Assembly: GCF_040782645.1 (NCBI RefSeq)
Contig: NZ_CP160403.1
Span: 124,001 to 188,000 of the forward strand
DNA: 64,000 nucleotides
Source of the DNA: Streptomyces sp. HUAS ZL42
GTDB taxonomy: Bacteria > Actinomycetota > Actinomycetes > Streptomycetales > Streptomycetaceae
Direction of reading: 5' to 3'
The notes below the pieces were generated by a model that had not been told where the DNA came from, ran no database searches, and worked only from the letters and a program-made list of their open reading frames with translations. Below are positions 4,484 to 39,917 of this stretch, piece by piece; the first letter of the stretch is position 1; every line of letters begins with the position of its first letter. Made by a program: the position numbers and the translations under genes.

Positions 4484-4489
4484 CTAGGG

Positions 4490-23715: not shown

Positions 23716-23726
23716 GGGGAACGGGC

Positions 23727-24899
23727 ATGGCGCACGACCGGCTGCCGGTGACCGTTCTGTCCGGCTTCCTCGGTGCAGGAAAGACCACGCTGCTCAACCA
23801 CGTGCTCGGCAATCGTGAGGGACTGCGCGTCGCGGTCATCGTCAACGACATGAGCGAGGTCAACATCGACGCGGCGCTGGTGCGCGGCGGTGAGGCGGCG
23901 CTGTCGCGCACCGAAGAGCGCCTGGTCGAGATGACCAACGGGTGCATCTGCTGCACGCTGCGCGACGACCTGCTCGTGGAAGTGGATCGACTGGCCCGGG
24001 AGGGGCGGTTCGACTACCTGCTCATCGAGTCCAGCGGCATTTCCGAGCCCATGCCGGTCGCGGCCACCTTCGCCTTCGCCCGCGACGACGGCGTCACCCT
24101 TGGCGGTCTCGCCCGCCTGGACACCATGGTCACGGTCGTCGACGCCGCCAATTTCCTGCCCGAACTGGCGAGCGGCGACGAGCTCGCCGAGCGCGGCCTC
24201 GACCAGTACGAGGACGACGAACGCACCGTCAGCGACCTGCTGATGGACCAGATCGAGTTCGCCGACGTCATCGTCCTCAACAAGCTCGACCTGGTCGGCA
24301 ACGACGCCGCCGAGCGACTGCGAGCGACGCTCACCCGCCTCAACCCGGTGGCCCGGATCGTGCCCGCCGCCCACGGACGCGTGAGGCTCGAGGATGTACT
24401 CGGCACCCGCCTGTTCGACTTGGAGCGCGCGCAGCAGGCCCCCGGCTGGGTCATGGAGCTCAATGGCGACCATGTCCCGGAGACGGAGGAGTACGGCATC
24501 TCCTCCACCGTCTTCCGTTCCGAACTGCCTTTCCATCCCGGGCGTTTGTGGCGGTTCGTGACCAAGGAGATGGACAGCGGCGCTTACGGCCAGGTACTGC
24601 GCTCCAAGGGCTTCTTCACTCTGGCCAACCGCCCGCAGGTGACGGGGCTGTGGTCGCAGGCCGGCTCCGTCGCCCGTTTCGAGCCCTCCGCCGCCCGCGA
24701 CACCGACAGCCCGGCAGGCCAGGAGCTGGTCTTCATCGGCACGCACCTGCATGCCGATGCGCTCCACGCCGCGCTCACCGACTGCCTGCTGGCGGACGGC
24801 GAGGGCATGCCGACGGTCGATCCGTTCCCCGCCTGGGACACCTACGGCATCGACGACACCTGCGACCACCAACACCCCGAACTCGTGGCGCGGCCCTGA
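23727..24899 (+). CDS. CobW/COG0523-family GTPase, putative zinc metallochaperone
   Basis: 390 residues. Walker A GFLGAGKT (13-20), metal-binding CxCC motif NGCICC (Cys 73, 75, 76), Walker B-like [11 protein letters not shown], and guanine motif NKLD (185-188). The C-terminal CobW_C domain includes [10 protein letters not shown] and a terminal His/Cys cluster [11 protein letters not shown]. The family (ZagA/ZNG1 group) uses GTP to deliver zinc to client enzymes. Coupling to a zinc-free bL32 and a Zur-like operator points to the zinc subgroup rather than cobalamin or nitrile hydratase. Start ATG 23727, 11 bp after rpmF, same operon. Confidence 0.88.
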
Positions 24900-24959: not shown

Positions 24960-27440
24960 AACGGACATCGAATCGCGTGGCTGTCATGACAGAGTACGGT
25001 GTACGGCTGGGCACAGCGTCTCTGATCAGCTAAGCGATCCCATGCGAACGGCAGGGTTCGGCGTGGGTTCTGCCCACTTGGGCGGGGTAGCGTGAGCGTG
25101 GAGATGGAATCCCGCGCCGAGTGCTGCTCCGCGTGGCCGGTGGCCGGTGGTGGGTGTGCTGATCGCGGTCATGCCCTGGTGCCGGTGGGCTGCGCGGGGC
25201 AGCCGGGTCCGGTCCGTTGGTGCGTGTCCCTCCGGACGCTTTCCGGCCGGGCCCGAGGGCCGGGCCGGGGAGGGAATCCCGCGTCGCCTGGGCGCGGGAC
25301 GGTTGGAACGCGGCCGGGTAGGGCCGGTCTTGGACCGGTCTTTCCGGCTGGTCTTCGGTGTGGCCGTGATGACCGCCCTGGCTTCGAGCTTGTCCACGAC
25401 CTTGCGGATCACCATGGCGCCGCTGGTCTTGTCCACGACGGTCTTGGTCTGGTGGGTGAGCCCACGCGCGACGATCCGCCGCCATGCGCCCTGGTCACGG
25501 TCGTCCTGCCATCGGCAGGACGGGCAGATGGCCCACTTCCAGCCCGGGATGGTGGGCCGGTCAGGGGACTTGCGGCGTCGCAGCGGGGTGAGGCAGTGCG
25601 GACAGTGCTTGGAGGTGTTCGCCGGCGGCACGGTCACCACGGCAACGCCGGCCTCGGCGGCGAGGTGCCGCATACGGTCGGCGATCTGCCCGCGCACGGT
25701 CTGGGACATGCGGGTGTTCTGGGTGCGGCCCATGCCGCCCGCTTCCATCGACCGCAGGTCTTCCAGGTAGATGACCGTGGCTTGGGCGGCAACGGCCTGG
25801 TCCACCGCCCATCGGGCAGCGGCCCAGGCCAACGCGTCGTTGAGGTGGGAGCGGCGCTGCGAGACGCGTCGGATCTCCTCCGTCAGCACGGCCTGTTTGC
25901 CGTCCAGGGCCGGGTCGGCGAGACGGGCGTAGTGGTCAGTCTTGGCGTGCAGCTGCTCGGACTGCTTCCGCAGGCGGTACTGCTTGGCCAGCACACCGGA
26001 GGCACGGAACTGCGCCCCGGTACCGATGGCGGTGATCGTGCCGTCCGGGCGGAGCCGGGCCGCACCGGCGGACAAAAGGGTGTTCAGTCCCCAGTCCACA
26101 CCCAACGCCACGGTGTGGCCGGAGCGCTGGGCCTTGGGCACGGGGTGGGTGTAGGCGAGATCGGCTCGTACCTTCCCGCCGACGATGCGCAGGGTCGGCA
26201 AGTGCAGGACGGCGTGCGCGGGAACAGTCGGGGGCAGCTTGATCGTGCAGGCGACCCACGACCAGTGCGCGTACTTCTGCGGGCCGGGCCGGGTGGGAAG
26301 CTGCAACCGCAGCACTACCTTCGTCGGCTCGGTCACGGACCGCTCGATCGACGCTTGCTGCCCGTCACAGGCGGAGAGAAGAACCATCCGCGCCACGCGG
26401 GGCGCGCCCTCCAGCTCGAACACGTCCACCGGGAGACGCCCGTTCTTCCGCAGATACGCGGCGATCTGACGGGTGCGGGAACGGATCACGCTGGACAGCA
26501 GGAACTCACCGCCAGGTATCGCGGCCCGCACCGTTTCCCACTCACCCTCGGTGCGCTTCTTCGGATCGACGGGCCAGGTGGCCAGAATTCCTGCGACTAC
26601 ATCGGCGCGCCACTTCACCGACCGCAGAGCGCGCCCGGCCTGTTCCTGAACGGCACGGACGATCCGGTCATTGACCTTCACGCCCTCGGGCGCGGCAGTG
26701 GTCCAGCCGAGGCGGCGCAGTGCCATCCACGCGTTCGACGGAAGCTTGCGTCCCCCGGTGTCCACTCCGGCGGCCAGAGTGTTCACGTCGGCGGTGTTCC
26801 AGTGCTCGCCGAGCAGCAAGGCGGTCATGCCAGCTGCCAGGCCGGTGCACCAGCCCACGCGTTCGGCCAGCACGGCATCGGTGAGGACTTCGCCGGTCTT
26901 CTCATCCACCCCGGCATGGACCAGGGTGCGGGCGCAGGCGGTGCGGGAGGTCTCGCCCTCGGTAGGCGGCAGCTTCCGGCTCACCGGGCGCGGCCCTCTT
27001 CGCTGCACTGCCCCGACTCCGCCAGCAGACGGCGACGGTTGTCCGCACTGCGCATCCCGTACAGCCGCCCGGCGAACGTCGTCACCAGCGAGACGAAGTC
27101 TTCGAGGAGTTCGTCCCGGCCGCCGAGCTTCTTCGGGTGCAGCACCTCCACGGTGACGCCGTACACGGCGAACAGCCGCTTCAGCCAGCCCACACCAAAC
27201 CGCGCGAGCCGGTCCTCATGCGTCACCCGCACCACGGTCACCGAGCCGTCCGCGACCATCGCGATCACCCGTTCAAGCCGGGCCGGTTCTCCTTCAGACC
27301 GGAACCGCGATCCTTGACGACCTTGACGACTGTCCCCGTCGAGGTTGCCCGCAACTCCTGCTCCTGAGCGTCCAGCGAGGACTCCTGCCCCGACGAGCCC
27401 GACACCCGCGCGAGGGCGCCGGCGGTGATGGCGACGACCG
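24960..27440 (-). mobile_element. IS607-type element (TnpA remnant plus TnpB)
   Basis: A serine-recombinase TnpA fragment overlaps by 28 bp a TnpB gene on the same strand, the layout of IS607-family elements. These have no inverted repeats, so the ends are estimates. The left junction (24900-25026) should carry the 3' end from which the guide-type omega RNA is made. The right junction lies inside a CDF relic near 27415-27440. Confidence 0.6.
25026..27008 (-). CDS. tnpB: Large TnpB-like RNA-guided nuclease (IS607-associated)
   Basis: 660 residues, far longer than the ~400 of typical TnpB. GTG start at 27008 overlaps the recombinase. RuvC-I: VALGVDWGLNTLL (Asp). RuvC-II: VIYLEDLRSMEAGGMGR (Glu). 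A zinc ribbon follows (CPHC to CPSC, four cysteines), then RuvC-III DDRDQGAWRRIVARGL (Asp), so the nuclease centre is complete. The extra length is an N-terminal ~300-residue helical region and a basic Pro/Arg-rich tail of ~110 residues (SRKDRSKTGPTRPRSNRPAP). Known TnpB proteins cut DNA guided by omega RNA from the element end, which promotes element retention. No frameshift is visible. Confidence 0.85.
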   Translation of the reverse strand: MQRRGPRPVSRKLPPTEGETSRTACARTLVHAGVDEKTGEVLTDAVLAERVGWCTGLAAGMTALLLGEHWNTADVNTLAAGVDTGGRKLPSNAWMALRRLGWTTAAPEGVKVNDRIVRAVQEQAGRALRSVKWRADVVAGILATWPVDPKKRTEGEWETVRAAIPGGEFLLSSVIRSRTRQIAAYLRKNGRLPVDVFELEGAPRVARMVLLSACDGQQASIERSVTEPTKVVLRLQLPTRPGPQKYAHWSWVACTIKLPPTVPAHAVLHLPTLRIVGGKVRADLAYTHPVPKAQRSGHTVALGVDWGLNTLLSAGAARLRPDGTITAIGTGAQFRASGVLAKQYRLRKQSEQLHAKTDHYARLADPALDGKQAVLTEEIRRVSQRRSHLNDALAWAAARWAVDQAVAAQATVIYLEDLRSMEAGGMGRTQNTRMSQTVRGQIADRMRHLAAEAGVAVVTVPPANTSKHCPHCLTPLRRRKSPDRPTIPGWKWAICPSCRWQDDRDQGAWRRIVARGLTHQTKTVVDKTSGAMVIRKVVDKLEARAVITATPKTSRKDRSKTGPTRPRSNRPAPRRRGIPSPARPSGPAGKRPEGHAPTDRTRLPRAAHRHQGMTAISTPTTGHRPRGAALGAGFHLHAHATPPKWAEPTPNPAVRMGSLS

Positions 27441-27445: not shown

Positions 27446-27543
27446 AATGACGTTGTAGTTGATCGTGGCCGCCACCAGCAGCCGTATGCGCCCGGCGAGG
27501 ACGTCGCGGCGGGCGGGTGAGGGCCCGAGGGAATAGCGGCCAT
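27415..27543 (-). pseudogene. Cation diffusion facilitator (CDF) N-terminal remnant
   Basis: ATG 27543 overlaps the ArsR relic stop as TGATG. Reading across frames gives MAAIPSGP, then RIRLLVAATINYNVI-like sequence, then EAVVAITAGALA, the first transmembrane region of a CDF zinc/cadmium/cobalt exporter. Two shifts and loss of the remaining ~250 residues at the IS607 junction leave only the start. The ArsR-CDF arrangement is a standard metal-resistance pair. Confidence 0.55.
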
Positions 27544-27900
27544 CAGCAGCACCCCTTGTCGTCGGCGTCGACGCACGTGCGGTCGGTCCACGGCCACCAC
27601 GGCGGTGCGCAGGTCGTCCGCGCGCGTCCGAGGCGTTCGTCGGCGAGTTCGTAGCGGGTGCGGCGGCCGTCGGGCTCGGTGACGACCAGTCCGCAGCCCC
27701 TCAGGCACGCCAGGTGGTTCGACAGGCGGGTACGGGAGACGCCGAGGGCGTCGGCGAGGTCTGCCGCATAGGCGGGAGCCTGGCGCAGGGCGAGCAGGAT
27801 CCGGCAGCGGATCGGTGGGCAGCAGGGCCGCCGCGGCAGCGAGGGCGCGCAGCAGAGCACCGGGGCGAGGCAAGTACGTGGCTCGCGACGGCTTCGACAA
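27543..27900 (-). pseudogene. ArsR/SmtB-family metal sensor, multiply frameshifted
   Basis: The core is intact in one frame: PIRCRILLALRQAPAYAADL, LGVSRTRLSNHLACLRGCGL, EPDGRRTRYELADERLGRA. The N-terminus (EAVASHVLASP) and the C-terminal helix DDLRTAVVAVD each sit in other frames, while the Cys-rich tail RTCVDADDKGCC returns. At least three indels are therefore needed. The paired Cys of RCRI and CLRGCG and the C-terminal CC tail resemble CmtR-type cadmium/lead or zinc sensors. Divergent to the metallophore operon. Confidence 0.7.
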
Positions 27901-27910
27901 GGACTAGTAA

Positions 27911-27927
27911 ATGAAAATGATTATCGC
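27911..27927 (+). promoter_or_regulatory. Zur-like operator of the metallophore operon
   Basis: ATGAAAATGATTATCGC matches the Zur palindrome ATGAAAATGATTTTCAT at 14 of 17 positions with the left half-site perfect. It lies ~90 bp before the first gene (GTG 28017) in the only substantial gap of the operon and next to an AT-rich patch likely to be the promoter. Zur bound to zinc would repress, so expression is expected under zinc shortage. A Fur-family relative with similar sites is the alternative. Confidence 0.65.
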
Positions 27928-28016
27928 TAGCGTGTGGGGAGCAAAGCCCGGCCCCTCCCAACCGAGGGTTGTGCGGGCTGCACTGACGCCTGAACCGCTG
28001 CACGAAAAGGGGAGTT

Positions 28017-29273
28017 GTGGCTCATCTGCTGATGGTCGAGAGCTGGGTCGGGTCGATGAGCAGACTCCTGCCACGGGCGATCAGGGAGGGCGGACATGAG
28101 TTCACGTTCCTCACCCGCGACCTGCACCACTACCTCCGCTCGGTGCCCGAGGGCGCGACGCATCCGCTGCTGGGCGCCCGCAACCTGATCACCGCCGACA
28201 CCAACGACACCGATGCCCTGCTGCCGGAGATCGAGCGGCTGCACGCGGCGCTGCGCTTCGACGGCGTGCTCACCTCCTGCGACTACTACCTGCCGACCGT
28301 GGCCCGCATCGCCGGGCAGTTGGGGCTGGCGGGCTCGCCCCCGGATGCGATGCAGAACGCCTGCCGCAAGGACGCCACCCGCCGTGTCCTCGCCGATGCG
28401 GGGGTTGCCGGGCCACGCTTCGCCGTGCATGAGGAGTGGGCCGACATCGCCCGGGCGGCGCGGGAGATCGGCTACCCGCTCGTGGTCAAGCCGGTCGATC
28501 TGTGTGCGGGCATGTACGTGCGACGCGTGGAGGACGAGGAACAACTCAACGCCGCCGTAAGGGCGCTGACCGACTTTCCCGTCAACGCCCGCGGACAGCG
28601 GCGGCAGCCCACCGTCCTGCTGGAGGAACTGCTGGACGGCCCCGAGGTAAGCGTCGAGACGGTGTCGTACGCGGGCGCGGTCCACGTCGTGGGCGTGACC
28701 GACAAGAGCATCGGTGGGTCGCCCGCGTTCATCGAGACCGGCCACATGTTCCCGGCGGCCCTCTCGGCCGCCGACGCCGAGGCCGCAGAGCAGACCGCTC
28801 TGGCCGCACTCAAGGCCCTCGGCCTGACCGAAGGCGTCGTGGCGCACACCGAGATCAAGCTGACCTCCGCCGGTCCGCGCGTGGTCGAGGTCAATCCGCG
28901 GCCCGCCGGGAACCGCATCACCGAACTGGTCCGCCACGTCTCCGGCATCGACCTGGCGGCGGCCTTCGTCGAGGTGTCCCTCGGCCGCGCGCCCGACCTG
29001 CGGCGCAGGGACACAGGGCTGCGTAGCGCGGCCATCGGCTTCCTCGTGCCGGAGACCTCGGGCACGCTCGAGTCGCTCGGCGGTGACGGACTCCGGAACG
29101 CGCCAGGTGTACTGGAGGTGCAGCTCGCCGAGCCCGGCAAGCAGGTGAAGGCGGCGGGCAGCAACAACGAGTATCTCGGGCATGTCATGGCGGGTGACGC
29201 CGAGGGACTGGGCGCCCGCGACCACGTCGAGGTTCTGCTCGGTGAGCTGCGGTCCGGGTTGGTGATTCGATGA
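28017..29273 (+). CDS. ATP-grasp ligase (amino-acid ligase type)
   Basis: 418 residues, GTG 28017 with AAGGGGAG just upstream; an ATG five codons in lacks spacing. ATP-grasp features: pre-grasp loop (LTSCDYYLPTVARIAG), ACRKDATRRVLADAGVAGPR, nucleotide lysine in YPLVVKPVDLCAGMYV, hinge LLEELLDGPEVSVETV, and metal ligands Glu279 (HTEIK), Glu291 and Asn293 (VEVNPRPAGNRI). The closest functional groups are L-amino-acid ligases and carnosine-synthase-like enzymes that make amide bonds via acyl phosphates. First gene of the operon, preceded by a Zur-like box. Predicted to join two amino-acid units of the metallophore (inference). Confidence 0.85.
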   Translation: MAHLLMVESWVGSMSRLLPRAIREGGHEFTFLTRDLHHYLRSVPEGATHPLLGARNLITADTNDTDALLPEIERLHAALRFDGVLTSCDYYLPTVARIAGQLGLAGSPPDAMQNACRKDATRRVLADAGVAGPRFAVHEEWADIARAAREIGYPLVVKPVDLCAGMYVRRVEDEEQLNAAVRALTDFPVNARGQRRQPTVLLEELLDGPEVSVETVSYAGAVHVVGVTDKSIGGSPAFIETGHMFPAALSAADAEAAEQTALAALKALGLTEGVVAHTEIKLTSAGPRVVEVNPRPAGNRITELVRHVSGIDLAAAFVEVSLGRAPDLRRRDTGLRSAAIGFLVPETSGTLESLGGDGLRNAPGVLEVQLAEPGKQVKAAGSNNEYLGHVMAGDAEGLGARDHVEVLLGELRSGLVIR

Positions 29274-30133
29274 CCGCCCCTGCCGGCTCAGCCCTCCGCG
29301 CGGCGTTCGAGACCTACGCGTCGTACGACGAACTCCTCGCGCACGTCCGCGCCGGTGAACTGGGACCGGATCCGGCCACGCAGCGGATCGCCGTGGCCTT
29401 CACCACGCGGCAGGCCGTTCGGCACGACGGGCGCGGCACCGGCTACCGCAACGAGGTGCTCAGCCTGCGTCTCGCCGAGGCCGTCGGCTCGTGCGCGGTC
29501 GAGCCCGGTGCGCTGCCCGACCGTGCGGTCGAGGACTGCGTCGGCGCTGATGTGGCCCGGCTGCTGGAGCATCCGCTGCTGCCGGTGCGCGTGGCCGCGC
29601 TCGACGCCTATCTGATGCATGTCATCCCGCACACCCCCGGCAACGGCGCCAGTCCCTTCTCCCTGCCTGCCGGAACCTCGCTGGAGAAGTCCCGGGCCCG
29701 CGCGAAGGCCGTCGTCGAGCTGCTCGATCTGCCGGCGGATGCGACCGTGCTGGTGGTGGGTGTCGTCAACTCCCTGCTGGAGGCGCTGCGTACGCGCGGG
29801 CTGAGCTATGTGCCCTGTGACCTCAAGGGCGGGCTGACCGAGTGGGATGAGGCGGTCGTCACCGACGCGCTCGCGGCCGCGGACCGCTGCGACGCGCTGC
29901 TGATCTCCGGCATGACCCTCGGCAACGGCACCTTCGAGCCACTGCGGCGGCACGCGCTGCGGCACGGCAAACGGCTGGTGATGTTCGCCCAGACCGGCAG
30001 CGCCGTACTGCCCCGCTTCCTCGGCCACGGGGTGAGCGCGGTGTGCGCGGAGCCGTACCCCTTCTTCTGGCTCGACGGCGGTCCCGGCACCGTCCACCGC
30101 TACGGCGGCCCGTGTCCGGAGGGCGGTCGATGA
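29270..30133 (+). CDS. DUF364/DUF4213 Rossmann-like protein (putative heavy-metal chelation family)
   Basis: 287 residues, ATGA overlap with the ligase. The N-terminal half fits DUF4213 (VAFTTRQAVRHDGRGTGYRN). The C-terminal half is Rossmann-like DUF364: DATVLVVGVVNSLLEALRTR, LSYVPCDLKGGLTEWDEAVV, CDALLISGMTLGNGTFEPLR, KRLVMFAQTGSAVLPRFLGH. The Pfam name for the domain is 'putative heavy-metal chelation', based on structure and context; no reaction is established. In most organisms it occurs beside metal transporters. Embedded here between ligand-building enzymes, it may act in biosynthesis rather than as a chelator. Confidence 0.75.
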   Translation: MTAPAGSALRAAFETYASYDELLAHVRAGELGPDPATQRIAVAFTTRQAVRHDGRGTGYRNEVLSLRLAEAVGSCAVEPGALPDRAVEDCVGADVARLLEHPLLPVRVAALDAYLMHVIPHTPGNGASPFSLPAGTSLEKSRARAKAVVELLDLPADATVLVVGVVNSLLEALRTRGLSYVPCDLKGGLTEWDEAVVTDALAAADRCDALLISGMTLGNGTFEPLRRHALRHGKRLVMFAQTGSAVLPRFLGHGVSAVCAEPYPFFWLDGGPGTVHRYGGPCPEGGR

Positions 30134-31218
30134 CCACGACGGTCGTACGCCCGCCCGCCCGCCCGGAACTGCTCACCCTCCTCGGCCACACACCACTGGT
30201 CCGCATAACGTCCGAACTGCCCGGCCCGCACCCCGGCTTCTGGGCCAAGCTCGAAGGGCTCGCGGCAGGCGGCATGAAGGCGCGGGCCGCCGTGTCGATG
30301 CTGCTGGGCGCCAGGGAGCGCGGCGAACTGCAACCCGGTGCACCGGTGGTGGAGTCCACCTCGGGGACGCTCGGCATCGGGCTCGCCTTCGCAGGACAGG
30401 CCCTCGGCCACCCTGTCGTGCTGGTCGGCGACAGTGAACTGGAGCCGTCCATGCGGCAGCTGCTGCACGCCCATGGGGTGCGGCTGGAGATCGTGGACCG
30501 CCCCGCGGCCCTGGGCGGCTGGCAGGCCGCGCGCCTCGAGCGGCTGCGGGAGCTGCTCTCCGTCCTGCCCGGTGCGTACTGGCCGGATCAGTACAACAAT
30601 CCCGACAACAGCGCCGGTTACGCCTCCCTCGCCGCCGAACTCGTCGATCACCTCGACCACCTGGACATCCTGGTGTGCAGCGTCGGCACGGGCGGCCACA
30701 GCGCGGGCATCATCGGCCCGCTGCGCCACCGCTGGCCCGCGCTGCGTCTGATCGGCGTCGACTCGACCGGCTCCACCATCTTCGGCCAGCCCGCCCGGCC
30801 CAGGCTGATGCGTGGCCTGGGCAGCAGCATCCACCCGCGCAACGTCGCCTACGACGCCTTCGACGAGGTCCACTGGGTCGGCCCGGCCGAGGCCGTGGAC
30901 AGCTGCCGCCGACTGGCCCGCGGCAGCTTCGTCAGCGGTGGCTGGAGCACGGGCGCCGCCGCCCGGGTCGCCGCCTGGGCCGCCCGCGTCCACCCCGGCG
31001 CGGTCGTCGCCACCGTCTTCCCCGACGGCCCGCACCGCTACCTCGGCACCGTCTACGACGACGACTTCGCCGCGGCCCACGGCCTCGCCCCGGCCACGGC
31101 GGCCACCCGCCCGGTCCAGATCCCGCACCCCCGCGCGGCCGAGGCCACCGGCTGGGTGCGCTGCACCCGCGTCACCGACCCACTGAAGGCCGTACCCGAC
31201 CCGGAAAGGACACCGTGA
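30130..31218 (+). CDS. Cysteine-synthase-like PLP enzyme (beta-replacement type)
   Basis: 362 residues, ATGA overlap. Fold-type II PLP motifs: opening LLGHTPLVRI, Schiff-base lysine Lys50 in AAGGMKARAA, substrate loop ESTSGTLGIGLAF, and PLP-phosphate loop SVGTGGHSAGI. The C-terminus has SFVSGGWSTGAAAR. The motif around the lysine departs from the NPxxSxKDR of real cysteine synthase, and no CysE partner is here. SbnA-like relatives convert O-phosphoserine to 2,3-diaminopropionate-type products for siderophores. A comparable beta-substituted alanine for the ligand is likely (inference). Confidence 0.83.
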   Translation: MTTTVVRPPARPELLTLLGHTPLVRITSELPGPHPGFWAKLEGLAAGGMKARAAVSMLLGARERGELQPGAPVVESTSGTLGIGLAFAGQALGHPVVLVGDSELEPSMRQLLHAHGVRLEIVDRPAALGGWQAARLERLRELLSVLPGAYWPDQYNNPDNSAGYASLAAELVDHLDHLDILVCSVGTGGHSAGIIGPLRHRWPALRLIGVDSTGSTIFGQPARPRLMRGLGSSIHPRNVAYDAFDEVHWVGPAEAVDSCRRLARGSFVSGGWSTGAAARVAAWAARVHPGAVVATVFPDGPHRYLGTVYDDDFAAAHGLAPATAATRPVQIPHPRAAEATGWVRCTRVTDPLKAVPDPERTP

Positions 31219-32273
31219 AGGCCAGCCTGCGCACCGTACGCCTCGAACTCACCGAGCCGCTGCGCATCTCCCGCTCCACCATGACCGCCCGCGACGCCGT
31301 GTGGCTGACCGTCGAACACGACGGCGTCACCGGCCACGGCGAGGCCGTCACCAGCTTCTACTACGGGCTTGACGCCGACACCCTGGGACGACTCCTCACC
31401 GCCGTCGGCGCGGACTTCGCCCGCTTCTCCGACCCCGAGAGCGCCCTGGAGGCCCTGCGGGCGGGCGAGTCGGCCGGTGCCGGCACTTCTTCGGCGGTGA
31501 CCGCCGCCGTCGAGGCCGCGCTGCTCGACCTCGTCGGCAAGCGGGCGGGAAGCCCCGTGCACAGACTGCTCGGTGCCGCCGTACCTCCGGTCGCGGCCAC
31601 CGCCCGCACCATCGGCATCACGTCCCTGGCCCACGCGGCGGCGCAGGCCCGCCGTCTCGCGGCGAGCGGCTTCGAGGTCATCAAGGTCAAGGCGGGAACC
31701 CCCGATCCCAAGGACGACGTGGAGCGCGTCCGTGTCATCCGCGACGCCGCGCCCCGGGCCCGGCTGCTCCTCGACCCCAACGGCGCCTGGACCGTGGCGC
31801 AGGCCGAGGCACTGCTGCACCGGTTCGCCGAGCTTGGCGTCGAGGCCGTCGAACAACCCCTCGCGCCCGGCGATCCGAAGGCGCTGGGCACGTTGGCCGA
31901 ACGCTCACCGCTGCCGGTCATCGCAGACGAGGACGCCGTGGACCTGGAGGACGTACGCCGCCTCGCCGGACGCGTCCAGGGCGTCAACGTCAAGCTCGCC
32001 AAGTGCGGCGGCGTGCACGCGGCCCTGCGCATCGCCGAAGCGATCGACGGCAGCGGCACGGACCTGATGCTGGGCTGCCTGACGGCCAGCAGTCTCGGCC
32101 TCGCGCCCGCCGTCCACCTCGCCGACCGGGCCCGCTGGGCCGACCTCGACGGACACCTGCTGCTCGCCCACGACCCGTGGGCCGGAATCGGCGGCGAGGA
32201 CGGAGTCGTACGCGCAAACAACCTCCCTGGCCTGGGAGTTCAGGAGGTGGGGGTCTATGAGGACGTTGCGTGA
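31215..32273 (+). CDS. Dipeptide-epimerase-like enolase-superfamily enzyme
   Basis: 352 residues, GTG start overlapping the previous TGA. Enolase superfamily, MLE subgroup: acid/base Lys157 and Lys159 in VIKVKAG, metal ligands Asp187 (LLLDPNGAW), Glu213 (AVEQPL), Asp238 (VIADED), and opposing base Lys263 (KLAKCGG). Near the C-terminus ADLDGHLLL carries the DxD (310, 312) that in L-Ala-D/L-Glu epimerases binds the substrate ammonium group. This makes a dipeptide-type substrate likely, which fits an upstream ATP-grasp ligase. The peptide specificity cannot be inferred further. The 3' end overlaps the MFS gene by 17 bp. Confidence 0.85.
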   Translation: MKASLRTVRLELTEPLRISRSTMTARDAVWLTVEHDGVTGHGEAVTSFYYGLDADTLGRLLTAVGADFARFSDPESALEALRAGESAGAGTSSAVTAAVEAALLDLVGKRAGSPVHRLLGAAVPPVAATARTIGITSLAHAAAQARRLAASGFEVIKVKAGTPDPKDDVERVRVIRDAAPRARLLLDPNGAWTVAQAEALLHRFAELGVEAVEQPLAPGDPKALGTLAERSPLPVIADEDAVDLEDVRRLAGRVQGVNVKLAKCGGVHAALRIAEAIDGSGTDLMLGCLTASSLGLAPAVHLADRARWADLDGHLLLAHDPWAGIGGEDGVVRANNLPGLGVQEVGVYEDVA

Positions 32274-33525
32274 GGTGCGCCGTTTCCCGCTCGCCGTGCA
32301 GCTCCTGCTGGTCAACCAGCTCGGCGTCAACACCGGCTTCTACCTCCTCATCCCCTACCTCGCCACCCACCTCACCGACAACCTGGGCATGTCGGCGGCC
32401 GTCGTCGGCGTCGTGCTCGGCGTGCGCAACCTCAGCCAGCAGGGGCTGTTCATCATCGGCGGCTCCGCCTCCGACCGGCTCGGCGCGCGCGGCGTCATCA
32501 TCGCCGGCTGCGCGCTGCGCACCGCCGGGTTCGCCCTCTTCGCGCTCGGCGACAGCCTGGCCGTGCTGCTCGCCGCCTCCGTGCTCAGCGGGCTCGCCGG
32601 GGCACTGTTCAACCCCGCCGTACGCACCTATATCGCCCAGGAGGCGGACGAGCGCAGGGCCGAGGCGTTCGCCCTGTTCAACGTGTTCGCCACCGCCGGC
32701 GCCCTGATCGGCCCGCTGCTGGGCAGCGCGTTGCTGCTCGTGGACTTCCGCACGTCCGCGCTGACCGCCGCCGGGAGCTTCGCCGCCCTCACCGTGGCGC
32801 AGGCCCTCGTGCTGCCGGCCCGGGACGTGAAGCCCAGCAAGGGCACGGTCGTCGCGGACTGGCGCGAGGTGCTGGGCAACCGGGCCTTCCTGGCCTTCGC
32901 GCTCGTCATGGTCGGCATGTTCACCCTGGAGAACCAGCTGTACCTGCTGCTGCCCGACGGAGCCCGGCAGGCCACCGGCTGGGACGGTGCCGCCGGCCTC
33001 GTCTTCGTCGTCGGCACCCTCGCCAACCTGGCGCTCCAGCTGCGTATCACCCGCGCCCTCAAGGAGAGGGGGAACCGCGCCCGTTGGATCGCGACCGGCC
33101 TGGGTCTCATGGCACTGGCGTTCCTGCCGCCGGCCGTGGTCGCGGTCGGCTCCGACGGCCCGGACGGCTGGGCCGATGCGGCGCTGCGCACCCTGCCCGT
33201 CCTGACCGGCGCTCTGCTCCTCCATCTCGGCGTGATGATCGCCCAGCCGTTCGTGATGGAGCTGATCCCCGGCTTCGGCCGGTCTGAGCTGACCGGCACC
33301 TACTTCGGGATCTTCTATGTGGTCTCCGGCATCGCCGCCGCTGTCGGCAACACCGTCGTCGGCTGGGCCATGGACACCGGGGAGCGGGGCGACGCCGGCT
33401 GGCTGCCGTGGGCGTGCTGTGCCCTGTTCGGTCTCGCCTCCGCGCTGGGCGTGGCCTGGCTGCACCGGCTCGGGTCGCTGCCGACGCCGTCGACATCCAA
33501 GCCCGTCGTACCCGCTACGGCCTGA
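32257..33525 (+). CDS. MFS transporter, likely metallophore exporter
   Basis: 422 residues with 12 predicted TM helices; start ATG 32257 with AGGAGG at 32242-32247 inside the upstream gene. The MFS A-motif appears as GGSASDRLGARGVIIAG after TM2. The layout of the N-half (GMSAAVVGVVLGVRNLSQQG) resembles MdtG/YfcJ-type drug efflux. Within this operon it most plausibly exports the synthesised ligand, as CntE does for staphylopine (inference by analogy). Confidence 0.85.
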   Translation: MRTLREVRRFPLAVQLLLVNQLGVNTGFYLLIPYLATHLTDNLGMSAAVVGVVLGVRNLSQQGLFIIGGSASDRLGARGVIIAGCALRTAGFALFALGDSLAVLLAASVLSGLAGALFNPAVRTYIAQEADERRAEAFALFNVFATAGALIGPLLGSALLLVDFRTSALTAAGSFAALTVAQALVLPARDVKPSKGTVVADWREVLGNRAFLAFALVMVGMFTLENQLYLLLPDGARQATGWDGAAGLVFVVGTLANLALQLRITRALKERGNRARWIATGLGLMALAFLPPAVVAVGSDGPDGWADAALRTLPVLTGALLLHLGVMIAQPFVMELIPGFGRSELTGTYFGIFYVVSGIAAAVGNTVVGWAMDTGERGDAGWLPWACCALFGLASALGVAWLHRLGSLPTPSTSKPVVPATA

Positions 33526-33534
33526 GGACACGGT

Positions 33535-34335
33535 ATGACCGCTGCGGCTGTTCGGCGCAACCTGCTCACCGACAACCCCGAGCTGTACGAGGCCCGCTTC
33601 CCCGACCCCGACCGGCTGGCCGGGCGCTGGACGGAGGACTGCCTGCGACGGCACGGCGCGGGACCACGCGTGCTCGACATGGGCTGCGGTACCGGCCGCG
33701 ACGCCGCCCACCTCCACGGCGCCGGCCGCAGCGTGACCGGCGCCGACCTCTCCGAGACGATGCTCGCCCACGCCCGCACCCACCACCCCGGCCCCGAGTA
33801 CGTCGAGGCCGACCTGCACGGCTTCGACCTCGGCCGGGGGGCGTTCGACGCCGTCGTATGTCTGGACAGCGCCCTGCTGTACTGCCACACCAACGACCAG
33901 CTCGACGCCTTCCTCTCCTCATGCCGTCGCGCCCTGGCCCCCGGCGGTCTCCTGGTGGCGGAGATGCGCAACGGCGCGTACTTCCTCGGCCGCACCGACC
34001 TGCTGGATACACCCACCGTCACCGAGTTCACCTGGCAGGGCATCGGCTACCGGTCCACCACCACGCTCACCGTGGACCGTACGGCCCAACTCCTGCGTCG
34101 GACGCGCGTGTGGACGGCGGACGACGGGTCGCAGCCGGTCGAGCAGCGTTCCGCGTGGCGGCTGCTGTTCCCGCAGGAGCTGCGCCACCTGCTGGCCGCG
34201 CACGGCCTCGAGGTCCTCGAACTCCACGACGGGCCCGGACCGCGCACCGAGCCTCCGTGGCAGGAAGGCCGGTTGCCCGGCGACACGACGGGCGCGGACC
34301 GGCTGCACGTCGTCGCACGCCTCACCACTCACTGA
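33535..34335 (+). CDS. Class I SAM-dependent methyltransferase
   Basis: 266 residues, start 33535 nine bases after the MFS stop. SAM-binding motif I VLDMGCGTGRDAAHLHGAG, motif II acidic VTGADLSETMLAHA, motif IV FDAVVCLDSALLY, and post-motif region LAPGGLLVAEMRNGAYF. It may tailor the ligand (N- or carboxyl-methylation) or be part of its assembly. There is no radical-SAM or 3-amino-3-carboxypropyl-transfer signature as in nicotianamine synthase, so the classical staphylopine-type route is not used. Confidence 0.85.
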   Translation: MTAAAVRRNLLTDNPELYEARFPDPDRLAGRWTEDCLRRHGAGPRVLDMGCGTGRDAAHLHGAGRSVTGADLSETMLAHARTHHPGPEYVEADLHGFDLGRGAFDAVVCLDSALLYCHTNDQLDAFLSSCRRALAPGGLLVAEMRNGAYFLGRTDLLDTPTVTEFTWQGIGYRSTTTLTVDRTAQLLRRTRVWTADDGSQPVEQRSAWRLLFPQELRHLLAAHGLEVLELHDGPGPRTEPPWQEGRLPGDTTGADRLHVVARLTTH

Positions 34336-34366
34336 TCCTCCGTCCCACCACACACCAAGGAATCCC

Positions 34367-35941
34367 ATGCACGACGAACGTTTCCCCGGCCTGCGCCGCC
34401 GTGGTTTCCTCGCCGCCACCGGCGCCGCCTCGATCGGCGCGCTCGCGCTGACCGGGTGCGGCAACTCCGGCAGCGAAGGCTCCGACGCCAAGGGCGACAG
34501 CACTCCGAAGAGAGGCGGGCGGTTGCGCGCCGCGTTCGCGGGCGGTGGCGCCAGCGAGACCCTCGACCCGCACCTGGCCAACCTCTTCGCCGACGCCGCC
34601 CGCGCCAAGGCCCTGTACGACAAGCTCGCCGACTACAGCGCCGACCTCTCCGCGCAGCCCCGCCTCGCCGAGAGGTGGGAGCCGAACAAGACCCTGGACC
34701 GCTGGCAGGTGACCCTGCGCAAGGCAACGTTCCACGACGCAAAGCCGGTCACCGCCACCGACGTCCTCTACAGCTACCGCCGCATCGCCGACCCCAAGCA
34801 GGCGTTCCGCGCCAAGGCGTCCCTGGAGCCCATCGACCTCGACGCCAGCCGCGCCACCGGCGAGCGGAGCATCGAGTTCGTCCTCAAGCGGCCCACTGCC
34901 GAATTCCCCAACGTCCTGGCCGCGTTCGGCGCCTACATCGTCCCGGAGAACGCCTCCGACTTCGACAAGAAGCCGGTCGGTTCCGGCCCCTTCCGGTTCG
35001 TCTCCTTCGCCCCCGGCCGCTCCGCCGTCTTCCGCCGCTACGACGACTACTGGGAGGGCGCCCCGCACCTCCACGAGCTCGAGTTCGTCGTCGCCAACGA
35101 GGAGTCCGCCCGCGTCAACGCGCTCCTCGGCGGCCAGGTCGAGTACGCCCACGAGCTCAACCCCACCACCGCCCGCGCCCACGAGGGCGAGGGACAGATC
35201 GAGATCGTGCGGCTGCGGGGCAGCGCCATGCAGGCGTTCTGCATGAAGACCGACCGGGCTCCCTTCGACGACAAGCGAGTCCGCGAGGCGTTCTTCCTCA
35301 TCGCCGACCGCAAGGAACTCGTCGACGGCGCCCTGTCCGGGGCGGGTGTGATCGGCAACGACTTGTTCGGCAAGGGCTACGAGTACTACGCCGACAGCCT
35401 CCCTCAGCGCGAACAGGACCTCGACAAGGCCCGCGCCCTACTCAAGCAGGCCGGCGCCGAGAACCTGAAGGTCACCCTCGACACCTCGGCCGTCGCCGCC
35501 GGGTTCACCGAGGCCGCAAGCATCTTCCGCGACCAGGCGAAGAAGGCGGGCGTCACCGTCGACGTGAAGATGGGCAGCAAGGACTCCTACTGGGCCGACA
35601 TCCTCGACAACGGCACCCTGTGCTGTTACCGCTCCGGCGCCATGCCCATCGAGGCCCACATCTCCCAGCGCCTGCTCACCGGCTCCACCACCAACGCCAC
35701 CAAGTGGGAGCACAAGGACTTCGACGCCCTCTACCAGCAGGCCCAGTCCACCCGCGACAAGACCGAACGGGCCGCCGTCTACGAGCGGATGCAGCGCCGC
35801 CTGTACACCGAGGGCGGCTTCCTCATCTGGGGGTTCGCCGACTGGATCCTCGGAACCGCCCGCAATGTGAAGGGAGTTGCGACAAGGGCCCCTGCCAACA
35901 CACTCGACTGGGCCCGCTTCGACAAGGTCTGGCTCGCGTGA
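34367..35941 (+). CDS. ABC importer substrate-binding lipoprotein (oligopeptide/nickel family SBP_bac_5)
   Basis: 524 residues. A twin-arginine lipoprotein signal (LRRRGFLAATGAASIG) with lipobox LTGC near residue 29. The mature part shows SBP_bac_5 sequence: GGRLRAAFAGGGASETLDPH, LAERWEPNKTLDRWQVTLRK, KPVTATDVLYSYRRIADP, KKPVGSGPFRFVSF and MQRRLYTEGGFLIWGFADWI. Such receptors bind peptides, opines or metal-metallophore complexes (NikA, CntA). Final position and partners suggest recapture of the loaded ligand. Its stop overlaps the permease GTG. Confidence 0.88.
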   Translation: MHDERFPGLRRRGFLAATGAASIGALALTGCGNSGSEGSDAKGDSTPKRGGRLRAAFAGGGASETLDPHLANLFADAARAKALYDKLADYSADLSAQPRLAERWEPNKTLDRWQVTLRKATFHDAKPVTATDVLYSYRRIADPKQAFRAKASLEPIDLDASRATGERSIEFVLKRPTAEFPNVLAAFGAYIVPENASDFDKKPVGSGPFRFVSFAPGRSAVFRRYDDYWEGAPHLHELEFVVANEESARVNALLGGQVEYAHELNPTTARAHEGEGQIEIVRLRGSAMQAFCMKTDRAPFDDKRVREAFFLIADRKELVDGALSGAGVIGNDLFGKGYEYYADSLPQREQDLDKARALLKQAGAENLKVTLDTSAVAAGFTEAASIFRDQAKKAGVTVDVKMGSKDSYWADILDNGTLCCYRSGAMPIEAHISQRLLTGSTTNATKWEHKDFDALYQQAQSTRDKTERAAVYERMQRRLYTEGGFLIWGFADWILGTARNVKGVATRAPANTLDWARFDKVWLA

Positions 35942-36891
35942 GCGGACTGCGTTCCTTCGTCGCCCGGCGGCTGCTCCTCGGCGTCGCGCAGACCGTGGCC
36001 GTCGTGCTCCTGGTCTTCGCGCTCACCGAGGCGCTGCCGGGCGACGCCGCCGTCGCTCTGGCCGGCGACCAGCCCGATCCCGCCCGGATCACCGCCATCC
36101 GCGAGACCATGCATCTCGACCGGCCCGCCCACGAGCGGCTGGCGGACTGGGCGACGGGCCTGTTCCAGGGTGACCTCGGCACCTCCCTGACCTCCGGCCG
36201 CCCGGTCGGCCAGTACATCGCCGACGGCTTCGGCCCGACCCTGCTGCTGGCCACGCTCACCGTGGCCCTGCTCGTCCCGATCGGCTTCGGCCTCGGCGTG
36301 CTCGCCGCCCGCCGCGAAGGGCGCCTCACCGACCGGCTGATCAGCTCGGTCACGCTCGCCATGTACGCGGTGCCCGAGTTCGCCCTCGGCGTGCTGGTGG
36401 TGACCGTGCTCGCTCTGCGGCTGGGCTGGCTGCCGCCGACCGCCGTCGGTTACGGCACCGACCTGCTCGGCCACCCGTCCGCGCTCGTCCTGCCCGTCCT
36501 CGTCCTACTGTCCCGGCCCGTCTGCTCCCTGTCCCGCCTCGTGCGGGCCGGCATGATCGACGCGCTCGCCTCCCCCTACGTGGCCCAGGCCCGGCGCTAC
36601 GGCATTTCGGGCACCCGCATCCGCCACACCCACGCCCTGCCGAACGCCCTCGCCCCCGCCGTCCAGCAACTCGCCCGCACCATCGACTGGCTGCTGTGCG
36701 GCGTCATCGTCGTGGAGGCGCTCTACGTGATCCCGGGACTCGGCACCGTCCTGATCAACGCCGTCGCCGAACGGGACGTGCCGGTCATCCAGGGTCTCGC
36801 CGTGGTGTTCGGCGTGCTGACCGTCGTACTGAATCTGGGCGCGGATCTCGCCGCCCACCGTCTCGCACCCCGGACAGGGGTGGCCGCGTGA
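35938..36891 (+). CDS. ABC permease 1 (DppB/NikB type)
   Basis: 317 residues from GTG 35938 overlapping the SBP stop. Opens SFVARRLLLGVAQTVAVVLL, the DppB-like first TM, then LPGDAAVALAGDQPDPARIT and the periplasmic segment LFQGDLGTSLTSGRPVGQYI. About six TMs and the EAA-loop MIDALASPYVAQARRYGISG, which docks on the ATPase. Forms a heterodimer with the next gene. Confidence 0.88.
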   Translation: MSGLRSFVARRLLLGVAQTVAVVLLVFALTEALPGDAAVALAGDQPDPARITAIRETMHLDRPAHERLADWATGLFQGDLGTSLTSGRPVGQYIADGFGPTLLLATLTVALLVPIGFGLGVLAARREGRLTDRLISSVTLAMYAVPEFALGVLVVTVLALRLGWLPPTAVGYGTDLLGHPSALVLPVLVLLSRPVCSLSRLVRAGMIDALASPYVAQARRYGISGTRIRHTHALPNALAPAVQQLARTIDWLLCGVIVVEALYVIPGLGTVLINAVAERDVPVIQGLAVVFGVLTVVLNLGADLAAHRLAPRTGVAA

Positions 36892-37760
36892 CGAAGCCGC
36901 GCACCGGCCGCTTCGCCCTCGGCGTGATGGTCGTCGCCGTACCCCTCGCGCTCGCCCTGCTCGGCCCGCTGTTCGCGGGCGAACCGGGGCAGCGTACGGC
37001 GTCGTTCACTCTCGGCGACGGCCACTGGCTCGGCACCGACTTCGTGGGCCGGGACGTATGGCAGCAGGTGCTGCACGGCGGCCGGTCGGTCGTGCTGACC
37101 GCGCTCGCCGCCACCGCCCTGTCGTATCTCGTCGCGCTCCCCATCGGCCTGGTCGGCGCGCTCACCCATCGCCGCTGGCTGGAGGAGCTGCTGATGCGCC
37201 CCCTGGACGTCCTGATCGCAGTCCCGTCGCTGCTGCTGATCCTGCTGGCCGCCACCGTGTTCTCCCCCGGCCCCGCCGGTCTCGCCCTGCTGGTGACGCT
37301 GGTCAACGTGCCCGACGCGGCCCGGCTCGTACGCGCCTCCGCCACGGAGGCCGCCGCCCGCCCCGCCGTCGAGGCGCTGCGCATGCAGGGCGAGACCTGG
37401 TGGCGCATGGCCGTCTGCTACGTCGGCCGTTCCATGCTGCGCACCCTGGCCGCCGACGCCGGCACCCGGCTGACCGGTGTGCTGTACCTGGTCGCCACGG
37501 CCGCGTTCCTCGGTGTGGGGGTCGCCCCGGACGCCGCCGACTGGGCGGTCATGGTGGACCGCAACCGCACCGGCCTGTTCGTCCAGCCGTGGGCCGTGGT
37601 CGTCCCCGCCCTGCTGATCGTCGCCCTGACGATGGGCACCAACCTCCTCTTCGACGCCGCGCTCGCGGGCGACCGACGAAGCGGACGCGTCCGGGGCGCG
37701 GCGCTCCCGGAAGCGACCAGGACCATCCGCGGCCAAAAAGGGAGTGAAGCACGCCCGTGA
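36888..37760 (+). CDS. ABC permease 2 (DppC/NikC type)
   Basis: 290 residues from GTG 36888, overlapping the previous stop. DppC features: N-terminal TM, then HWLGTDFVGRDVWQQVLHGG (the conserved H-x-LGTDxxGRDV block), LMRPLDVLIAVPSLLLILLA, and EAA-loop VRASATEAAARPAVEALRMQ. Overlaps the ATPase gene by four bases. Confidence 0.88.
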   Translation: MTKPRTGRFALGVMVVAVPLALALLGPLFAGEPGQRTASFTLGDGHWLGTDFVGRDVWQQVLHGGRSVVLTALAATALSYLVALPIGLVGALTHRRWLEELLMRPLDVLIAVPSLLLILLAATVFSPGPAGLALLVTLVNVPDAARLVRASATEAAARPAVEALRMQGETWWRMAVCYVGRSMLRTLAADAGTRLTGVLYLVATAAFLGVGVAPDAADWAVMVDRNRTGLFVQPWAVVVPALLIVALTMGTNLLFDAALAGDRRSGRVRGAALPEATRTIRGQKGSEARP

Positions 37761-39361
37761 CCCACACGGACGACACGACAGACGAGGTCGGCAGCCCCGC
37801 CGACCCCGGTGACACCGTCGAGGCGCCCCTGGCCGAGATCCGCAACCTGCGTGTCGAGGTCGGCGGCAGGGCGATCGTCGACGGAGTGAGCCTCCAGGCC
37901 CTCCCCGGCAAGGTCACCGCCCTGGTCGGCGCGTCCGGCAGCGGCAAAACCACCACCGGCCTCGCCCTGCTCGGCGAGTACCCGCCCGGCGCCCACGTCA
38001 CCGGCGACGTGCGCCTGGCGGCCGACGGCCTGGTCGGCTACATCCCCCAGCATCCGGCGGCCGTCCTCAACCCCGCCCGCCGCATCACCGCCCTCCTCAG
38101 CGACATCGCCCGCGCCCAGGTACGCCACCTGCCCCGAGGCCAACGCCGGGCGGCGGCCCGGGAACGTGTCCTGCACGCCCTTGCCGAGGCCCAACTCCCG
38201 GACGCCGAGACCCTGCTGCGCCGCTACCCGCACCAGCTCTCCGGCGGCCAGCAGCAACGCGTCGTCCTCGCCCAGGCGCTGTTGCTCGGCGCCCGGGTCG
38301 TCGTCGCCGACGAGCCCACCACCGGTCAGGACGCCCTGACCAAGAGCCGAATCGTCGACCAGTTGGCGGCCGTGGCGGCACGTGGCATCGCCGTCGTCCT
38401 CCTCAGCCATGACCTGGACGTCGTACGGGCACTCGCCGACGAGGTGATCGTCATGCGGGCGGGCCGCGTCGTGGAGTCAGGCCCGGCCGAACGCCTGATG
38501 CTCGCGCCCCGGCACGCATGGACGCGCGAACTGCTGGCCGAACAGCCGGAGTTCACGGAGCCGGAGGGTGCGACGGGCACCGGCCGGCCCGTCCTGAGGG
38601 TCCGCGACCTGACCGCCCGCCACCGCAACAACACACGCGACACCACCGAAGTACTGCACCTCCCCCGACTCGACCTGCGCGTGGGCGAAAGTCTGGCCGT
38701 CGTCGGCCGCTCCGGCAGCGGCAAGACAACCCTCGGCCGCTGTCTGGCCGGACTCCACCGCGACCACGGCGGAGAGATCCTTCTCGACGGCACACCGCTG
38801 CCGCGCAGCCTGCGCGACCGCGACCGCGTACAGCTGGCGGCTGTGCAGTACGTCTTCCAGGACGCTCGCGCCGCCTTCGACGAACACCGTCCCGTCCTGC
38901 ACCAGGTCGCCCGCACCGCGATACGGCTGCGCGGCGCCGAGACCTCCGCCGCGACCCGGGAAGCCCTGGCCACCCTGGTCAGCCTCGGTCTCCCGGAGGA
39001 CCTGGCCGCCGGACGCCCCGGGCAGCTCTCCGGCGGCGAACTGCAGCGCGCGGCCCTCGCCCGCGCCCTGCTCTCCCGGCCGCGTGTCCTCATCTGCGAC
39101 GAGATCACCTCCGGCCTCGACCCGAGCACCCGCCGGGCGATCCTCGGCATCCTCACCACCCTGCTGCACGATCGCGACGACCTGTCCCTGGTCCTGATCA
39201 CCCACGACCTGGACACCGCCGCCCTGGCCCACCGCATCGCAGTCCTGGACGCCGGCGAACTCGTCGAACAGGGGCCGGCCCGGCGAGTCCTCACCGCACC
39301 GAGCCACCCGTTCACCGTGTCGCTCATGAAAACAGCGACACGGCTGGGATCGCGCCTGTGA
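37757..39361 (+). CDS. Fused dual-domain ABC ATPase (DppD-DppF type)
   Basis: 534 residues, GTG start. Two nucleotide-binding domains in one chain. Domain 1: Walker A GASGSGKTTTG (~58), signature LSGGQQQRV, Walker B VVVADEPTTGQD, H-switch LLSHDLD. Domain 2: Walker A GRSGSGKTTLG (~318), signature LSGGELQRA, Walker B VLICDEITSGLD, switch LITHDLD. Both sites are complete. It powers the two permeases. The stop codon overlaps the GTG of a broken ZnuC-like frame. Confidence 0.9.
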   Translation: MTHTDDTTDEVGSPADPGDTVEAPLAEIRNLRVEVGGRAIVDGVSLQALPGKVTALVGASGSGKTTTGLALLGEYPPGAHVTGDVRLAADGLVGYIPQHPAAVLNPARRITALLSDIARAQVRHLPRGQRRAAARERVLHALAEAQLPDAETLLRRYPHQLSGGQQQRVVLAQALLLGARVVVADEPTTGQDALTKSRIVDQLAAVAARGIAVVLLSHDLDVVRALADEVIVMRAGRVVESGPAERLMLAPRHAWTRELLAEQPEFTEPEGATGTGRPVLRVRDLTARHRNNTRDTTEVLHLPRLDLRVGESLAVVGRSGSGKTTLGRCLAGLHRDHGGEILLDGTPLPRSLRDRDRVQLAAVQYVFQDARAAFDEHRPVLHQVARTAIRLRGAETSAATREALATLVSLGLPEDLAAGRPGQLSGGELQRAALARALLSRPRVLICDEITSGLDPSTRRAILGILTTLLHDRDDLSLVLITHDLDTAALAHRIAVLDAGELVEQGPARRVLTAPSHPFTVSLMKTATRLGSRL

Positions 39362-39890
39362 GGGAGTTGCAACAGCCCGTGGGAGCCGGGGAGTTCGTCG
39401 CCGTGCTCGGTCCCAACGGGTCGGGCAAGACCAGCCTCATGAAGGCGTTGCTGGGCCGGCAGCAGCCGTCCGCCGGCACGGTGCCTGGGCCGATCGCCGC
39501 GGGAGGCCGGCCGGCACATCGGCTACGTCCCCCAGCAGGCAGCACTCTCCGCCCAAGCGATGCTGCGCGTCCCGACCTGGTGCGCCTCGGGATCGACGTA
39601 CACCGCTTCAGCCAACGACTGCGGACGCGGGCCGTACGCGACCGGGTGGACGAGATCCTTGTGAGGCGGTCGGGGCCACCGCCTACGCCGACGTCCCCCT
39701 CGGCCTCCTGTCCGGCGGTGAACGCCAACGCGTACGCATCAGCCAGGCCCTCACCACGGACCCCCGCATCCTGCTATGCGACGAACCGCTGCTCTCCCTC
39801 GATATGAACGCCCAGCGGGCCATCACCGAGCTGATCGATGCCCGGCGCCGCTCCCACGACACGACGGTGGTCTTCGTGAGCCACGCGTAC
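39358..39890 (+). pseudogene. ZnuC-like metal ABC ATPase remnant
   Basis: Begins at GTG 39358 overlapping the previous TGA: GEFVAVLGPNGSGKTSLMKA. It then needs at least three frame changes to read IGYVPQQAALSAQAML, DLVRLGIDVHRFSQRLRTRA, DVPLGLLSGGERQRVRISQA, ILLCDEPLLSLDMNAQRAIT and HDTTVVFVSHA. The first ~20 residues and the end are missing. ZnuC-like proteins power high-affinity zinc uptake and are standard Zur targets, so this relic again marks a zinc locus. Truncated at ~39890 into an SDR fragment. Confidence 0.7.
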
Positions 39891-39917
39891 CTACGGCGGG
39901 GCCGGAGCCGTGGGTCA

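Follow-up and report, generated by a model that had tools for sequence, protein, structure and literature searches.

How might a bacterium build a zinc-scavenging molecule, a zincophore, from an operon that holds none of the usual signatures of such pathways? This question is raised by a 64-kb stretch of the Streptomyces sp. HUAS ZL42 genome (contig NZ_CP160403.1; hereafter, the window), located 124-188 kb from one end of the 9.87-Mb single-contig genome, in which ten intact open reading frames (ORFs), all on the plus strand (28017-39361), lie downstream of a box resembling the binding sites of the zinc regulator Zur. We read this locus, with a probability of roughly 0.78, as a Zur-repressed zincophore operon that is independent of nonribosomal peptide synthetases (NRPS) and built on SbnA/DUF364 chemistry, in which the ligand, its metal and the reaction of the DUF364 protein would be as proposed below. 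The known bacterial zincophores are few, and the NRPS, opine-type and IucA/IucC enzymes that commonly give them away are missing here, so the route to the zinc-binding molecule appears to differ from that of the zinc scavengers described so far.

Domain assignment, with Pfam for nine of the ten proteins and NCBIfam for all of them, revealed an ATP-grasp ligase, a DUF364 protein, an SbnA-like enzyme dependent on pyridoxal phosphate (PLP), a dipeptide-epimerase-like protein, a transporter of the major facilitator superfamily (MFS), a methyltransferase, and a complete importer comprising a solute-binding lipoprotein, two permeases and a fused double ATPase. Six of the nine junctions between these genes are overlaps of exactly 4 bp, another is an overlap of 17 bp, and the remaining two are gaps of 9 and 31 bp, in agreement with the co-directional, mostly 4-bp-overlapping arrangement behind a Zur-like box that a previous model-made reading of the letters alone (the sequence-only reading) had described. 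That reading had also proposed a search for the genes as a syntenic block across actinomycete genomes. A search of 392 Streptomyces genomes with the DUF364 protein (E<=1e-30) gave matches in 169 of them, falling into two groups, one of about 69-89% identity (99 genomes, this one included) and the other of about 40%. From the first group, 128 loci were retrieved, 111 of them unique by their SbnA plus DUF364 sequences, as some genomes were present from two collections. Of the 112 loci that extend 9.8 kb or more downstream from the DUF364 gene, 109 contain all ten genes with order and strand unchanged, a count that includes duplicate genomes and close relatives and thus does not represent independent events; among the 109, locus L048 showed fragmentary matches for several genes, yet it was complete by the thresholds used. 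Carriers of DUF364 orthologs include S. scabiei, S. europaeiscabiei, S. nigrescens and S. cyaneochromogenes, and the ten genes were also detected in two genomes of two other actinobacterial families, with 48-71% identity per gene and Zur-like sites of 11-12 out of 15 upstream, although one of them has its epimerase match split in two and its last gene truncated where the stretch stops. The make, export and re-import architecture put forward by the sequence-only reading is conserved as a unit. Two Streptomyces megaplasmids matched 84% and 76% of the operon DNA, the corresponding figures for two Embleya plasmids being 49% and 39%, which suggests transfer between species. In S. sporangiiformans, the closest named relative compared, a 91% identical block corresponds to window positions 27814-39349, approximately the operon plus its promoter, and only three short pieces of the rest of its 20.8-kb stretch align to the window.

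The link with Zur rests on the box itself, TGAAAATGATTATCG, and on its position. A scan of the window with the pattern TGAAAAYSRTTTTCA, allowing up to three mismatches, gave two matches against 0.26 expected, and a search of the 9.87-Mb genome for the Zur-type pattern with at most two mismatches gave seven places, against none for the reversed control. In addition to this operon, two of these places precede a znuA-like gene that is followed by zinc-ABC-like and Fur-family genes, another adjoins rpmG2/rpmE2-like genes, not far from one resembling rpsN2, and another is upstream of a cation diffusion facilitator (CDF) exporter; hence, four of the six other places correspond to znuA, alternative ribosomal-protein or CDF-exporter genes, as identified by eye from their translations. 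In S. coelicolor, the genes controlled by Zur include znuA, ribosomal-protein genes of this kind and zitB, which encodes an exporter (PMC5472717). Boxes in the relatives were scored out of 15 against the actinobacterial Zur consensus taken from that same source. Every one of the 110 unique loci whose upstream sequence reaches 150 nt or more showed a box of at least 11/15 within 220 nt 5' of the ATP-grasp start, and 105 of them one of at least 12/15. Such sites are concentrated there: along 2.09 Mb of loci of this type, 108 sites reached 12/15 and 105 of these fell in those 220 nt, and at the lower threshold of 11/15, 113 of 123 were in the operon promoter and 10 elsewhere. A box-anchored alignment of 108 of the 109 unique promoters (window included) revealed a -35-like element (a/t)TGACA and a -10-like element TAnCGT separated by a 17-bp spacer, with the Zur-like 15-mer inside the spacer, so that Zur binding there would presumably stop the polymerase. 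The promoter thus contains a conserved operator resembling a Zur box, and the Zur linkage claimed by the sequence-only reading is strengthened by this arrangement and by its sharing with the zinc genes of the same genome, in so far as sequence can tell.

The nearest relatives of the enzymes point to the kind of chemistry involved. The best PDB matches of the PLP enzyme are the SbnA structures 5d84-5d87, its nearest solved relatives, and its score against the SbnA model TIGR03945 is 239.4 bits (curated cut-off, 349.95), which makes a beta-substituted alanine a likely building block, as had been predicted. SbnA-type chemistry yields N-(2-amino-2-carboxyethyl) amino acids, the activated serine being O-phosphoserine in the SbnA precedent. 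Among NCBIfam models, the ATP-grasp protein is closest to the corresponding part of PRK02186 (198 of 625 bits); it contains an L-amino-acid-ligase C-terminal domain, and its closest PDB structure is the L-amino acid ligase 3vot. The epimerase-like protein keeps KxK, the metal-binding D/E/D, a second K and DLD (DxD) in 109 unique orthologs, motifs that we take to define the dipeptide-epimerase family, and it scored below the cut-offs of the dipeptide-epimerase models (NF011708, 142.1 of 343; NF041118, 135.5 of 500) and higher, also below cut-off, against the racemase model DgcA (233.6 of 400). Overall, the catalytic motifs of the operon enzymes are kept across 109-111 unique orthologs. The DUF364 protein reaches the gathering score of Pfam PF04016 and has the fold of this family, with 12-15% identity to its structures 3L5O and 3NPG.

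From these resemblances, the following route can be proposed. When zinc is plentiful, Zur would sit on the box in the promoter spacer and block transcription, and under zinc shortage a single transcript would cover all ten genes. With an activated serine as C3 donor, the SbnA-like enzyme would attach this unit to the nitrogen of a second amino acid; the resulting aminopolycarboxylate, of the ethylenediamine disuccinate (EDDS) or aspergillomarasmine kind, would be the substrate of the DUF364 protein, which would replace the SbnB/ornithine-cyclodeaminase step. Next, the ATP-grasp ligase could add an amino acid through an amide bond, the epimerase would reset one stereocentre of this dipeptide-like compound, and the methyltransferase would decorate it. 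The MFS protein would export the ligand, and the NikA/opine-type binding protein, together with the two permeases and the fused ATPase, would re-import the metal complex. As the most economical product, we propose a relative of the aminopolycarboxylates that carries an amide link and is epimerised and methylated.

The 40% DUF364 group corresponds to a separate cluster type, present in several Actinomycete families, of which 38 loci were examined (26 from Streptomyces and 12 from other genera; L035-L040, L217-L248; one of the 13 non-Streptomyces genomes with matches, G486, was left out). The SbnA-like and DUF364 genes were found in all 38, FecCD and Peripla_BP_2 proteins in 32, a GHMP kinase in 30, and an MFS protein in 15. 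A Zur-like site of at least 11/15 was present in 37 of the 38 stretches (12-20 kb), and in 26 of them it preceded a recognised cluster gene by no more than 400 nt; for comparison, the 2.09 Mb of first-type loci contain only 10 such sites away from the operon promoter. In three of these loci, within the L035-L040 stretches, no ATP-grasp or epimerase match was found at E<=1e-8, a search that was not extended systematically across the second type. Since this type is recognised without ligase and epimerase, the SbnA-like/DUF364 pair seems to be the core; the dipeptide-like ligand that the sequence-only reading had predicted from these two enzymes fits their motifs in the present operon. The GHMP kinase, if it acted on serine, would be a possible source of O-phosphoserine for the SbnA-like enzyme. 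Among the 392 genomes, the first type was found in 99 and the second in 73, with both in only 3 against 18.4 expected (Fisher p=2e-7, a value that ignores shared ancestry; typing was by the best DUF364 match at E<1e-100, and G375, a 55% complete genome, was put in neither type), which suggests alternative systems for one job. In S. coelicolor, SCO0472 and SCO0474 are counted in the Zur regulon (PMC6103462), as is SCO0475 (PMC4726154), and a Zur site is predicted at SCO0476 (PMC10320115); SCO0472-0476 would be a candidate for a second-type cluster. We regard as an evenly balanced proposal that the SbnA-like and DUF364 enzymes form the two-enzyme core of an unrecognised and widespread Actinomycete class of zinc metallophores, served by two unrelated importers (an Opp/Nik type along with ATP-grasp, epimerase and methyltransferase, and a FecBCD type mostly along with a GHMP kinase), with DUF364 turning the SbnA product into the ligand. 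As the DUF364 protein points to one or other type in 169 of the 392 genomes, overlooked zinc scavengers may be common; DUF364 gains a testable role, and zinc removal or zur deletion offers an obvious switch for finding the compound. Beside the second-type cluster of L035, genes for a DIT1/PvcA-like protein (isonitrile synthase family) and a cytochrome P450 were observed (3577-4668 and 4798-6075, both on the minus strand).

Several observations weigh against a zincophore operon controlled by Zur. None of the operon's enzymes reached a curated NCBIfam cut-off when all ten proteins were scored, so that the assignments are family resemblances and not named enzymes, and the transcript, the zinc response and the compound are all predictions. 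The DUF364 protein, to which a role in ligand making is assigned here, belongs to a family without known reaction: the 2010 structure paper reports no demonstrated function (PMC2954201), and the family is also named in the abstract of a Serratia RNA-seq paper (PMC4046660). The box ends in CG, versus CA in the S. coelicolor Zur motif, and this G is present in 106 of the 108 aligned rows. The two remaining genomic places of the motif are upstream of a CooC-like ATPase gene (G000:C1:8795835, L195) and near an aldehyde dehydrogenase gene, neither of which is, to our knowledge, among zinc or Zur-target genes. Only the first four genes are kept in three loci, probably from two genomes. With regard to the second type, no FecCD or binding-protein match was found within the stretch in 6 of the 38 loci, L234 had none reaching 11/15 among its Zur-like sites, and in 11 loci over 400 nt separate the nearest site from any recognised cluster gene; in seven of these 11 it is about 0.4-1.3 kb off, which may leave room for an unassigned first gene (in L239, such a gap holds an ORF without Pfam match), and in L223, L225 and L227 it is more than 5 kb away. 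The evidence for the first type does not rest on these second-type operators. Finally, a divergent gene for an alpha/beta-hydrolase of the TAP-like-peptidase type (for example, L100, 7058-8542, minus strand) accompanies 53 of the 111 unique relatives, 100 of which have at least 1.8 kb upstream, and could hint at peptide use.

Regarding known systems, the staphylopine and pseudopaline zincophores likewise combine an Opp/Nik-type importer with an MFS exporter, and pseudopaline has a printed link with Zur (PMC6103462). No nicotianamine synthase or opine dehydrogenase was detected among the operon proteins, and neither was any NRPS domain, as would be needed for coelibactin, the Zur-controlled NRPS zincophore of S. 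coelicolor, with which the operon would share the expected Zur control; the exclusion of both staphylopine and coelibactin and the NRPS independence put forward by the sequence-only reading were thus borne out. The staphyloferrin B sbn operon shares the SbnA likeness, whereas its SbnB and IucA/IucC synthetase (the enzyme of NRPS-independent siderophores) are absent among the ten proteins. Aspergillomarasmine A, a fungal compound of Asp and two diaminopropionate units, represents the product class expected from an SbnA-type reaction, and the operon's binding protein is a relative of NikA; this compound is reported to bind Zn, Ni and Co, and NikA to bind its metal complexes (PMC11091072). Such data, along with the proximity of the binding protein, permeases and ATPase to nickel/opine-type Opp families, would also suit a metallophore under Zur control that carries chiefly nickel or cobalt, or a range of metals, as staphylopine- and NikA-linked systems do. 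We consider this improbable, as the operator fits the zinc regulator and four of the six other places of the motif in the genome lie at zinc genes.

Still less probable is a zinc-responsive antibiotic or peptide-uptake system, in which the ligase would make a dipeptide-like antimetabolite and the Opp importer would take up the products of the neighbouring peptidase. The ligase type, the dipeptide-epimerase-like enzyme, the importer and the divergent hydrolase would all suit it. However, this hydrolase was not found in the other relatives, yet the ten genes stay together in them, and the second type, with the same SbnA-like/DUF364 core, mostly carries a siderophore-type FecBCD importer.

The sequence-only reading had left for comparison a possible overlap with the [S,S]-EDDS pathway. 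Its relative by print, ethylenediaminesuccinic acid hydroxyarginine (EDHA), is assigned to scab_5231-5311, a cluster of 11 kb (PMC8914351), listed as MIBiG BGC0002567 (PMC11888242). S. scabiei 87.22 carries the ten-gene operon at about 9.09 Mb and a weak SbnB-family match at 0.596 Mb, within an 11-kb, nine-gene stretch (L172) that encodes an Opp-type importer with fused ATPase, an SbnA-like enzyme, an exporter of the multidrug and toxic compound extrusion (MATE) family, a VioC/GntD-like hydroxylase, an ornithine-cyclodeaminase-like protein and a LysA-like decarboxylase. We took this stretch as the EDHA cluster because its content and place, rather than locus tags, fit the printed range. Both systems share an SbnA-like enzyme (35% identity), an exporter, the importer type, NRPS independence and a size of about 11 kb, so the overlap holds for the SbnA-like step and the importer; the other enzymes differ. 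No cyclodeaminase/SbnB-like enzyme or decarboxylase was found among the operon's ten proteins, and tblastn (E<=1e-4) gave no match in the EDHA stretch to the operon's ATP-grasp, DUF364, epimerase, MFS or methyltransferase proteins; the best Zur score there was 9/15, the background level. By gene content, the operon is thus distinct from the EDHA pathway, S. scabiei having both in different places and with different enzymes, and the comparison with the aes locus of EDDS runs through EDHA. A rearranged EDDS/EDHA-type aminopolycarboxylate pathway, despite the related SbnA-like enzyme and importer, is the least probable alternative, given that the cyclodeaminase-like, LysA-like, VioC-like and MATE genes are all absent from the operon, that five operon proteins lack counterparts in the EDHA stretch, and that S. 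scabiei holds both clusters. No open-licence PMC paper describing the operon in its title or the start of its abstract was found, which does not prove its absence from print.

Table 1. Promoter elements and genes of the putative zincophore operon (positions in the window)
Feature	Position	Strand	Basis or remarks
-35-like element TAGTAA	27905-27910	+	Column conservation over 108 aligned promoters; weak in the window
Zur-like box, 21-mer (core 15-mer)	27909-27929 (27912-27926)	+	
-10-like element TAGCGT	27928-27933	+	TAnCGT conserved in relatives
ATP-grasp ligase (L-amino-acid-ligase type)	28017-29273	+	Pfam PF13535, PF18603; PDB 3vot
DUF364 protein, predicted metallophore biosynthetic enzyme	29270-30133	+	
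SbnA-like/cysteine-synthase-like PALP enzyme (PLP, beta-substituting)	30130-31218	+	TIGR03945; PDB 5d84-5d87
Dipeptide-epimerase-like protein, enolase superfamily	31215-32273	+	PF13378/PF02746; PDB 3iji, 4gfi, 3jva
MFS transporter, presumed exporter	32257-33525	+	PF07690; MdtH-like, under NCBIfam cut-off
S-adenosylmethionine (SAM) methyltransferase	33535-34335	+	PF13649
Family-5 solute-binding lipoprotein (SBP_bac_5)	34367-35941	+	PF00496; nearest PDB include AgaA, NikA, DppA
ABC permease 1 (Opp/Nik type)	35938-36891	+	NCBIfam Opp2B, 219.6 bits, cut-off 350 missed
ABC permease 2 (Opp/Nik type)	36888-37760	+	PF00528; Opp2C/NikC-like, under cut-off
Fused double ATPase of the importer	37757-39361	+	Two ABC_tran stretches; NikD/NikE- and CntD/CntF-like, under cut-off

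The surroundings of the operon (Table 1) are mosaic. Upstream of it, only a short start of the TAP-like hydrolase gene seems to be left in the window (27814-27905, minus strand), and an ArsR-type regulator ORF with a cysteine-bearing tail, CVDADDKGCC (27543-27860, minus strand), showed no match in the loci of the relatives. Directly 3' of the operon, at 39358-39900 on the plus strand, an apparent frameshifted remnant of a ZnuC-like ABC ATPase was read by eye. A CobW/COG0523-like GTPase gene (23601-24899, plus strand), with a weak Zur-like site (23494-23508, 3 mismatches) about 90 nt upstream, is possibly a zinc-related neighbour of the operon, and between both lies an ORF matching a TnpB/Cas12f1-like TNB domain (25026-27008, minus strand), probably a mobile-element remnant. 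Finally, an IS110-type transposase and a P450 gene were located further upstream (19067-20308 and 20563-21840, both on the minus strand).

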